From contig NZ_JAMHIV010000029.1 in NCBI RefSeq assembly GCF_023897065.1, forward strand, positions 1-64,000: a DNA stretch of 64,000 nucleotides, given 5' to 3'. Position 1 is the first letter of the stretch; each line of letters opens with the position of its first letter. A program made the translations under genes and the position numbers. The notes beneath the pieces are model-generated. The model saw only the letters and a list, made by a program, of their open reading frames with translations, had not been told where the DNA came from and did no database searches. Source of the DNA: Crossiella sp. SN42 (GTDB lineage: Bacteria; Actinomycetota; Actinomycetes; Mycobacteriales; Pseudonocardiaceae). Below, one piece after another: positions 50,299 through 52,490 of the stretch.

Positions 50299-51507
50299 AT
50301 GCGTGCGCTGCTGTCCACAATCGGGTCGCGCGGTGACGTCCAGCCGGTGGTGGCGCTGGCCGTGCGACTGCGCGAACTGGGTCACCAGGCGCGGATCGCG
50401 GCGCCGCCGGACTACCGCGAGTGGATCGAGTCCCTGGGGTTCCCGTTCTTCCCGGTCGGGCCGGAACTGCGGCCGCAGGTCAAGGCCGAGCCCGAGGTCA
50501 GGCCCGCGCCACCCACCGCTGAGCAGCGGCGGAAGATGATCGCGGCCACGGTGGCCAGCCAGTTCGAGGCGCTGCCCGAGGCGGCGGCGGACTGCGAGGT
50601 CATCGTGGCCTGGTCGGCGTTGCAGATCGCGGCCCGCTCGGTGGCCGAACACCGGGGAATTCGCTACGTCTACATCGCCTACGGTCCGACCACGCTGCCT
50701 TCTCCGCACCACGGTCCCGCGCCATTCGACAGCCTCGGCCAGCACCCGTCGGCCGAAGGGGCGGATTTCCGGGCACTGTGGGCGGAGAACGCGGAATTTG
50801 TGAACCAGCTCTGGCGGGAGCCGTTGAACATCCACCGCGCCCGGCTCGGCCTGCCGTCGGTCACCGAGGTCCGCGACCACATGTTCACCGACTCGCCTTG
50901 GCTGGCCGCTGATCCCGTGCTCGCGCCGTGGCCCGAGCCCTCGGAGCTGAAAGTGGTGCAGACCGGGGCCTGGACCATGGCCGACGACCGGCCGCTGTCC
51001 GCCGAGGTCGAGGAGTTCCTGGCGGCGGGGGAGCCGCCGGTGTTCTTCGGCTTCGGCAGCATGGCCGCGCCGCCGGAGCTGGGCCACGCCCTGCTCAAGG
51101 CGGCCAGGGCGCTCGGCCGCCGGGCGGTCATCTCCCGCGGCTGGGCCGACCTGGCCCTGACCGGCGAGCCGGACTGCCTGACCGTGGACGAGGTCAACTA
51201 CCAGGCGCTGTTCCCCCGGCTGGCCGCGGTGGTGCACCACGGCGGTTCCGGCACCACCACCGCGGTGACCCAGGCCGGCACGCCGCAGGTGATCGTGCCG
51301 CAGATGTACGACCAGCACTACTTCGCCGAACGCGTGCAGGCCCTCGGCGTCGGCTTCGCGCACGCCAGGGGAGTGCCGACCACGGACTCCCTGATCGAGG
51401 CGCTCACCCAGGTGTTGCGGCCGGAGGTGGCCGCGCGGGCCAAGGAGGTGGCCGGTCAGGTGCGCACCGACGGCACCCTGGTCGCCGCTCGGTTGCTGAT
51501 CGGCTAG
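50299..51507 (+). CDS. Macrolide/glycopeptide-type glycosyltransferase (GT1)
   Basis: 402-residue GT-B glycosyltransferase. N-terminal LLSTIGSRGDVQPVVALAVRL is the acceptor-domain signature; VFFGFGSM and VVHHGGSGTTTAVTQAGTPQVIVPQMYDQHYFAER form the nucleotide-sugar-binding motif. It resembles enzymes that glycosylate antibiotics, either in biosynthesis or for inactivation; no biosynthetic cluster is present here, so detoxification is plausible. ATG 50299 follows AAGGGGG. Its stop overlaps the convergent GGDEF gene by 4 bp. Confidence 0.9.
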   Translation: MRALLSTIGSRGDVQPVVALAVRLRELGHQARIAAPPDYREWIESLGFPFFPVGPELRPQVKAEPEVRPAPPTAEQRRKMIAATVASQFEALPEAAADCEVIVAWSALQIAARSVAEHRGIRYVYIAYGPTTLPSPHHGPAPFDSLGQHPSAEGADFRALWAENAEFVNQLWREPLNIHRARLGLPSVTEVRDHMFTDSPWLAADPVLAPWPEPSELKVVQTGAWTMADDRPLSAEVEEFLAAGEPPVFFGFGSMAAPPELGHALLKAARALGRRAVISRGWADLALTGEPDCLTVDEVNYQALFPRLAAVVHHGGSGTTTAVTQAGTPQVIVPQMYDQHYFAERVQALGVGFAHARGVPTTDSLIEALTQVLRPEVAARAKEVAGQVRTDGTLVAARLLIG

Positions 51508-52490
51508 CAGCCCCGGCCGATCATCTGCCGCATGATCAGGCAGACGTCGACCAGCGGCTTCTGCTCGGTGGTCGTGGTGGTCGGCGGGGGCTTGCTGGTG
51601 GTGGGTTTCTTCTTCGCCGGGGCCGCCTTGCTCGCCGGGCGCGGCGGTGGGGCGGGCGGTGGCGGGGCGATCACCGTGGTCACCACGATCACGGTGGTCT
51701 CCACCGAGGGCGTGGTCGGGGTGGCCGGGGCGAGCTGCGCGGCCGCCATCGCCGGTTCCTCCCGCTCCGGCGGCGGCGCGAAGGCCACGATGTAGGCGAA
51801 GGCGGCCAGCGCGGAGCCCAGGCCGACCAGCACCGGCACGTACCGCCGGACCGGCGTCACCGGTTCCGCGCGGTGCCTGGCCAGCGGCACCGGCAGCGGG
51901 GTGCGGGAGTCCTCGGCCAGCCGGATCCGGTCCCGGCCCGCCTGCTTGGCCACCTGGAGCGCGGCGTCGGCGGCCACCACGAACGCGGTCAGGTCCTCCT
52001 CCGGCGCGGGCACCCTGGCGCACACGCCGATCGAGGTGGTCACCTTGTCCAGCCGGATGATGCCGCCGTCGGTGCTGGGCGCGTCCACCGCGATCGCGCG
52101 CACGCCGGTGCGGATGCGGTGCGCCACCGAGAGCGCCTCGGCCGCGTCGGTCTGGCGCAGCAGCACCAGGAACTCGTCGCCGCCGTGCCCGCCGTAGCGG
52201 CCGAGCACGTCGGTCTCCCTGGTGCAGCGGCGCACCGTGTCGGCCACCGCCTTGATCACCGCGTCCCCGGCGATGTGCCCGAACCGGTCGTTGAACCGCT
52301 TGAAGTGGTCGATGTCGATCACCAGCAGCGCCAGCGAGTCCCGCTGCGCGGCGGCCTGCGCGAGCTCGGCCGGGGCCCGCTCGTCCCAGCCCCAGCGGTC
52401 CAGCAGGCCGGTCAGGCGGTCGGTGGCGGCGTGGCCGCAGGACTGGCAGGCCGGGTCCACGGGATCGGCGCTCGAACCGGGCGCGGTCAT
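51504..52490 (-). CDS. GGDEF protein with one membrane span and Pro/Thr-rich outer tail
   Basis: 328 residues. Residues 1-185 hold a diguanylate-cyclase domain (DRLTGLLDRWGW; VIDIDHFKRFNDRFGH; GGDEF at 103-107; RETD at 91-94 resembling the inhibitory site). The active-site hairpin reads RYGGHGGDEF, three residues longer than the usual RYGGDEF. One hydrophobic segment follows (YVPVLVGLGSALAAFAYIVAF, about 210-230), then a Pro/Ala/Lys/Thr-rich tail ending VDVCLIMRQMIGRGC, predicted outside. ATG 52490 is used; GTG 52523 follows less convincing context. Confidence 0.83.
   Translation of the reverse strand: MTAPGSSADPVDPACQSCGHAATDRLTGLLDRWGWDERAPAELAQAAAQRDSLALLVIDIDHFKRFNDRFGHIAGDAVIKAVADTVRRCTRETDVLGRYGGHGGDEFLVLLRQTDAAEALSVAHRIRTGVRAIAVDAPSTDGGIIRLDKVTTSIGVCARVPAPEEDLTAFVVAADAALQVAKQAGRDRIRLAEDSRTPLPVPLARHRAEPVTPVRRYVPVLVGLGSALAAFAYIVAFAPPPEREEPAMAAAQLAPATPTTPSVETTVIVVTTVIAPPPPAPPPRPASKAAPAKKKPTTSKPPPTTTTTEQKPLVDVCLIMRQMIGRGC

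Follow-up and report, generated by a model that had tools for sequence, protein, structure and literature searches.

The GGDEF motif is among the best studied and most conserved of bacterial signalling motifs, and it is found in the turn of the hairpin at the active site. In a membrane-bound sensor cyclase of the usual kind, the sensor and its spans precede the GGDEF domain. The inhibitory (I) site, RxxD, usually stands five residues before the motif and is absent from some active cyclases. One study gives the signature of GGDEF domains as [G/A/S]G[D/E]E[F/Y] (PMC6456294). In DgcR, the motif is reported to lie in the β2-β3 hairpin turn; an Asn and an Asp bind the guanine, and main-chain amides hold the terminal phosphates (PMC8041772).

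We analysed a window of 64,000 nucleotides from Crossiella sp. SN42 (NZ_JAMHIV010000029.1, positions 1 to 64,000) that encodes a GGDEF protein departing from this pattern. With the canonical diguanylate cyclases (PleD, WspR and DgcR) the protein shares the fold, a DxLT, a contiguous GGDEF and an upstream RxxD, as well as the residues for metal, guanine and phosphate. It differs in that three additional residues separate the conserved R-Y from GGDEF, and also in its N-terminal CxxC, its domain placed before the span and its Pro/Thr tail placed after. It belongs to a GGDEF subfamily in which the extension of the catalytic turn varies, and it combines this with a reversed domain order and a Pro/Thr tail. 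A literature search, with most subscription journals outside its coverage, gave no match for GGHGGDEF, and the titles and abstract openings of the matches listed held no report of a CxxC GGDEF subfamily.

Domain and catalytic turn of the Crossiella protein

The minus-strand open reading frame at 51504-52490 translates into a GGDEF protein of 328 residues. GGAGGG lies 11 nt 5′ of its ATG, and in a Crossiella orthologue (L002) there is no in-frame ATG or GTG 5′ of the same start Met. The features of the gene and its product are:

51504..52490, minus strand: GGDEF protein gene (ATG 52488-52490, stop 51504-51506)
52437..52448, minus strand: N-terminal CxxC (C15, C18), signature of the subfamily (sequence; 107 of 136 rows)
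51927..52430, minus strand: GGDEF domain, residues 21-188 (Pfam E 1e-36; Foldseek 3ign)
52209..52220, minus strand: RETD, candidate inhibitory (I) site, residues 91-94 (sequence)
52185..52193, minus strand: three-residue insertion in the β2-β3 turn, assigned to GGH at residues 100-102 (phmmer gap, orthologues, AlphaFold)
52170..52184, minus strand: GGDEF motif, intact, residues 103-107 (sequence)
51780..51848, minus strand: single transmembrane helix, residues 215-237 (AlphaFold helix; hydropathy 2.21)
51507..51776, minus strand: Pro/Thr-rich tail, residues 239-328, probably exported (39% Pro+Thr)
51507..51542, minus strand: tail tip, C317-C328, with a short predicted helix 316-326 (two Cys; AlphaFold helix)

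Pfam GGDEF (PF00990) matched residues 21-188 with an E-value of 1e-36 and TIGR00254 scored 140.1 bits against a cut-off of 37.4. The fold matches solved cyclases in Foldseek, the best match of the model being 3ign (TM 0.89 by target length, 0.46 by query length). The Crossiella sp. SN42 genome has 30 GGDEF matches, five of them with the insertion.

The catalytic turn reads RYGGHGGDEF (residues 98-107), which the original prediction described as a three-residue insertion. Translation, alignment gaps and orthologues all bear this out. With phmmer against solved GGDEF domains, all three alignments examined (of 48 matches) had a three-residue gap inside the motif, although its exact placement is ambiguous amongst the repeated Gly. 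Orthologues from three other Crossiella genomes, which are 86, 86 and 72% identical, keep the insertion, as does that from another genome of this species (L079), so that it is conserved in 4/4 other Crossiella genomes. The GGDEF at residues 103-107 has the signature form and lies at the β2-β3 turn of the AlphaFold model, with the three extra residues before it.

The prediction also held that the insertion moves the RETD site farther from GGDEF. In sequence this is the case, as RETD lies eight residues before the motif. In structure it is probably not, since the model suggests that RETD keeps its place on the strand. We compared two AlphaFold models, built with the same 28 sequences. In the window protein, strands at 95-99 and 106-112 flank a turn at 100-105 (mean pLDDT 76.4; 87 for block 101-110, which is below its neighbours; most of the tail is modelled with low confidence). 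In a soluble relative (L138; pLDDT 85.3), the strands are at 112-115 and 123-129. The turn thus spans 6-7 residues between intact strands in both models, which suggests that the extra residues enlarge the turn and gives no sign of the I-site strand moving. Displacement of RETD from the active site is also not borne out by the retention of RxxD in 41/55 CxxC proteins with the insertion, compared to 43/51 without it and 23/26 other GGDEF domains; rows were assigned to the CxxC groups by that motif, so they all carry it by construction.

The residues expected for metal, guanine and phosphate are all present in the window protein (D59, N67, D76, D105, E106, K182 and R186). All 57 insertion rows keep D59, N67, D76 and K182, and 54 of them keep K64, as do 54 for R186. 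Conservation of D59, N67 and D76 comes partly from match selection, because they are covered by the search profile (A2, below), and that of E106 and F107 is by construction, because the hairpin was read by a pattern ending in EF; K182 and R186 lie outside the profile and are free of the pattern. Every loop in the CxxC rows examined ends in DEF. This retention of catalytic residues in members with the insertion makes an active diguanylate cyclase most likely.

Distribution of the longer turn

A DNA pattern for GGHGGDEF matched in 23/297 genomes of the family, whilst a reversed-pattern control matched in 0/297. Of 30 loci fetched from this search, 28 were GGDEF genes and two were chance matches; the genomes G237 and G149 had chance matches only, in other genes, leaving 21 family genomes as real. 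The recurrence of GGHGGDEF is not due to chance. Scanning a collection of named genomes with R[YF]GGxGGDEF gave 50 loci, judged from context to be 30 GGDEF domains and 20 chance matches. All 30 domains were found under actinobacterial titles: Kibdelosporangium (8), Crossiella sp. S99.2 (4), Actinophytocola (3), Actinocrispum, Actinosynnema sp. ALI-1.44, Amycolatopsis and Planosporangium (2 each), and Longimycelium, Herbihabitans, Gandjariella, Saccharopolyspora, Kutzneria, Actinoplanes and a record titled Rhodococcus rhodnii (1 each). Planosporangium and Actinoplanes belong to the Micromonosporaceae and the other genera with a family given in the tree to the Pseudonocardiaceae. Both patterns select for the insertion, so its presence among their matches is by construction. 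The assembly titled Rhodococcus rhodnii NRRL B-16535 (G118; loci L138 and L196) groups with Kibdelosporangium, and its title is probably wrong.

In a sample of 396 genomes from the phylum, R[YF]GGxGGDEF had no match outside the window's own genome. In a sample of 394 genomes from the class, the N-terminal profile matched (E 1e-26) in two, the window's own and that of L227. This second genome (G983) comes from another family of the class and encodes a CxxC GGDEF protein with RYGGHAGDEF. From the L227 sequence, the insertion would appear either to extend past the Pseudonocardiaceae and Micromonosporaceae or to have been transferred.

For a count blind to the hairpin, we searched the 297 family genomes with a profile (A2) of the N-terminal part that ends before the hairpin; 14 N-terminal segments went into it, 13 of which came from insertion-bearing proteins, and at most 18 candidates were scored per genome. 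The best 102 of the rows listed comprised 52 with the longer turn and 50 without, of which 101 were read from sequence (51 with, 50 without) and one with the insertion was judged from the GGHGGDEF pattern search; the halves are not independent counts, as at least 23 of the 50 rows without the insertion are orthologues from one genus (g8). The cut-off (E 6.2e-27) was set after seeing the matches, at the step to rows without the CxxC part; the five CxxC rows read below it have GGDEF (L222, L224 and L225), GGAADEF (L223) and GGHGGDEF (L013). The insertion is therefore not the oddity of one protein that the original prediction had made of it: in both the pattern and profile searches it recurs across the subfamily, and about half of the best-matching members have a longer turn.

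Proteins of the subfamily, which come mostly from the Pseudonocardiaceae, have in common an N-terminal CxxC and a sequence resembling D[RK]LTGLLDRWGWD (LLDRWGWD). The 51 insertion rows of the hairpin-blind search that were read had GGHGGDEF (38), GGSAG (6), GGYGG (2), GGHDG (2) and GGHTG, GSHTG and GGQGG (1 each). The 107 CxxC rows, which include pattern matches, had GGDEF (50), GGHGGDEF (42), GGSAGDEF (6), GGYGGDEF (2), GGHDGDEF (2) and, once each, GGHTGDEF, GSHTGDEF, GGQGGDEF, GDDEF and the two-residue form GGAADEF. Gly is found at residue 104 in 57/57 insertion rows, whilst residue 103 is G in 47, A in 6, T in 2 and D in 2. An invariant G before DEF next to a variable residue 103 fits an insertion between Y99 and a GGDEF in its normal place.

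Two minor variants were seen. The turn of L223 (RCGGAADEF) is two residues longer, and this row sits on a long branch. Seven rows from one genus (L169, L175, L176, L177, L179, L181 and L182) carry CRHGGDEF, in which His takes the place of the usual Tyr or Phe. We considered whether RHGGDEF is a relic left by deletion of YGG from RYGGHGGDEF; a sister row reads RYGGDEF, so a point change accounts for it just as well.

Repeated change in turn length and its possible meaning

A maximum-likelihood tree was made without the hairpin from 116 of the 136 rows, having dropped 19 near-copies and L043, whose AGDEF hairpin was not read by the pattern; incomplete rows (L109 and L130) and rows scoring <60 had been left out beforehand. 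The bootstrap is not fully settled, and two long branches meet among the canonical domains. On this tree the insertion changes 12 times, compared to a mean of 38.7 when shuffled, and supported branches force at least six changes. A single clade of members with the insertion was rejected (p-AU 5e-55). Turn length has thus changed repeatedly in the subfamily. Since the root of the tree was not inferred, gain and loss are generally indistinguishable. One case reads as a loss: L196 sits inside the tailed Kibdelosporangium group and is identical to L082, which is also tailed and comes from Kibdelosporangium aridum DSM 43828, at 283/302 aligned positions (94%), the only gap being the three turn residues (nine nt; GGCGGGCACGGCGGC versus GGCGGC in the DNA of the pair). 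The domain dN/dS between L196 and L082 is 0.06, so the gene does not look to be decaying.

The DNA of the window turn (TACGGCGGG CACGGCGGC) makes plausible the short tandem duplication suggested in the original prediction, and the form expected from plain duplication, RYGGYGGDEF, occurs in L108. Judged from these sequences, the insertion likely originated by tandem duplication with slippage.

Our favoured reading, which we hold to be reasonably probable, is an active diguanylate cyclase with c-di-GMP as its product and a turn tuned by the insertion. A tandem duplication of nine nucleotides in the turn codons would probably have given the three extra residues. The longer turn would leave the strands and catalytic residues undisturbed, and the extra residues may adjust how GTP is bound or how two domains pair, with catalysis not abolished.

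The main rival, which seems to us unlikely, is that the longer turn is functionally neutral: a GC-rich nine-nucleotide repeat expands and contracts by slippage and is tolerated in the turn. The six or more state changes on the tree, the short GC-rich direct repeats at the turn site and L196, where the insertion is missing from a protein otherwise little changed, all fit this. Moreover, with half of the subfamily rows lacking the insertion and L196 under constraint without it, the insertion may matter little. Against neutrality, exact GGHGGDEF is kept in 38/51 hairpin-blind insertion rows (many of them close relatives, so that the counts are not independent) even though the GGH codons vary, with eight versions over 46 rows. 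The insertion is also kept in 5/5 Crossiella genomes. Between the Crossiella orthologues, dN/dS for the GGDEF part is roughly 0.12 to 0.62, the upper values meaning that constraint is not uniformly strong.

It is rather improbable that the domain is a receptor that binds GTP or c-di-GMP but has no synthase activity. The insertion does directly adjoin the signature motif of the active site, and 14/55 insertion-bearing CxxC proteins lack a full RxxD, so that regulation is not the same in all of them. Degenerate GGDEF domains, though, usually lose catalytic residues, and here these are kept about equally with and without the insertion.

A switch of product to another cyclic dinucleotide, caused by the longer turn, is very improbable. 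In Hypr GGDEF domains, which are cGAMP synthases, Ser replaces the guanine-reading Asp; in the Hypr enzyme GacA this is Ser347, at the position of D76. The window protein has the GGDEF fold in common with GacA (6d9m is among the Foldseek matches) but differs in having D76, which, as above, every insertion row also keeps, and its sequence suggests no change of specificity. Constructs of GacA change Ser347 to Asp (PMC6456294). Some weak encouragement for a switch comes from a proposal that the fourth residue of GGDEF has its effect on the other subunit's substrate; this is from an earlier paper quoted in the DgcR study, whose authors' own model disagrees (PMC8041772). Finally, the stretch is GC-rich and repeat-like, as a sequencing or assembly artefact might be, but the same insertion in five Crossiella genomes and in 30 named loci from other assemblies refutes this.

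The reading as a tuned cyclase can be taken further, into what we regard as a doubtful scheme. Turn length could be an evolvable switch, with a nine-nucleotide repeat added or removed to reset catalysis or dimer pairing; the thiols of the CxxC and, in tailed members, of the two outer Cys could be coupled to c-di-GMP; and a signal might pass from the outer C-terminal stalk to the N-terminal enzyme. If true, the turn-length switch would lie in the most conserved motif of the GGDEF family. The extension occurs naturally in many proteins, and at least one close relative lacks it cleanly, so that natural sequences can take the place of designed mutants in testing what turn length does.

Membrane span, tail and neighbouring genes

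The protein does not have the usual architecture of membrane sensor cyclases; its span follows the domain. The original prediction of a reversed order was correct, Pfam, AlphaFold and hydropathy together placing the GGDEF domain at residues 21-188 and the single span at 215-237. The best 19-residue hydropathy mean is 2.21, at the span; a second span was considered, and the next best mean elsewhere is 1.06. Basic residues precede the span and acidic residues follow it; under the positive-inside rule, this charge pattern argues for a domain in the cytoplasm and a tail outside. The diguanylate cyclase would then be held beneath the membrane by its C-terminal span, with the GGDEF domain on the cytoplasmic side and a Pro/Thr stalk extending into the cell wall.

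The 90-residue stretch past the span is 39% Pro+Thr and has Cys317 and the terminal Cys328. The Pro/Thr tail of the original prediction is thus present and probably exported; to the terminal Cys that it noted we add that the feature shared among tailed proteins is a pair of Cys. We listed 13 tailed rows of the subfamily (five from Crossiella, seven from the Kibdelosporangium group and Actinocrispum, and one from Gandjariella) using a hydropathy threshold of 1.6, which leaves L196 off the list although its alignment shows the same tail with a CPLC tip. All 13 have a strong span after the domain and none comparable beyond it (next ≤1.36), followed by 82-109 residues with 31-40% Pro+Thr. In 13/13 there are two Cys past the span, both in the last 28 residues; they are eleven apart in Crossiella, with the second at the very end, and form a CxxC in Kibdelosporangium. 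Between Crossiella orthologues, the tail has a dN/dS of ~0.4-0.5. The tail may serve as an anchor, or as a stalk bearing a redox or metal tip, and the two-Cys tip may sense or anchor something outside. Together, the reversed order and two-Cys tail suggest an actinobacterial route for cell-wall or redox input to c-di-GMP signalling.

We also considered a conserved neighbour gene as a partner. The GGDEF gene is convergent with a glycosyltransferase gene, with a 4-bp tail-to-tail overlap (51504-51507), and divergent from a gene for a pterin-binding enzyme. The pterin-binding gene adjoins the GGDEF gene in the window and in 4/4 other Crossiella genomes, and the glycosyltransferase gene is present in the window and the other Crossiella genomes except L004. 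A search of the 2.6-8 kb on which the tailed genes of Kibdelosporangium, Actinocrispum and Gandjariella lie turned up none of three neighbour genes from Crossiella, and the partner was accordingly rejected. No partner from these stretches supports a sensing role.

In other members of the subfamily, the GGDEF domain is followed by nothing or by an HxlR helix-turn-helix. The literature search found no paper on a GGDEF-HxlR fusion. The fused proteins have the same subfamily domain, and in place of their HxlR part the window protein has the span and tail. Their HxlR-type helix-turn-helix scores, against a cut-off of 20.8 bits, are 39.3 (L142:205-1266), 25.9 (L147:6201-7445) and 27.1 (L191:1018-2220). 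L191 weakly resembles the redox regulators RrpA and RrpB, with scores far below the cut-offs. Among these fusions, the insertion is present in L142 and L147 and absent from L191.
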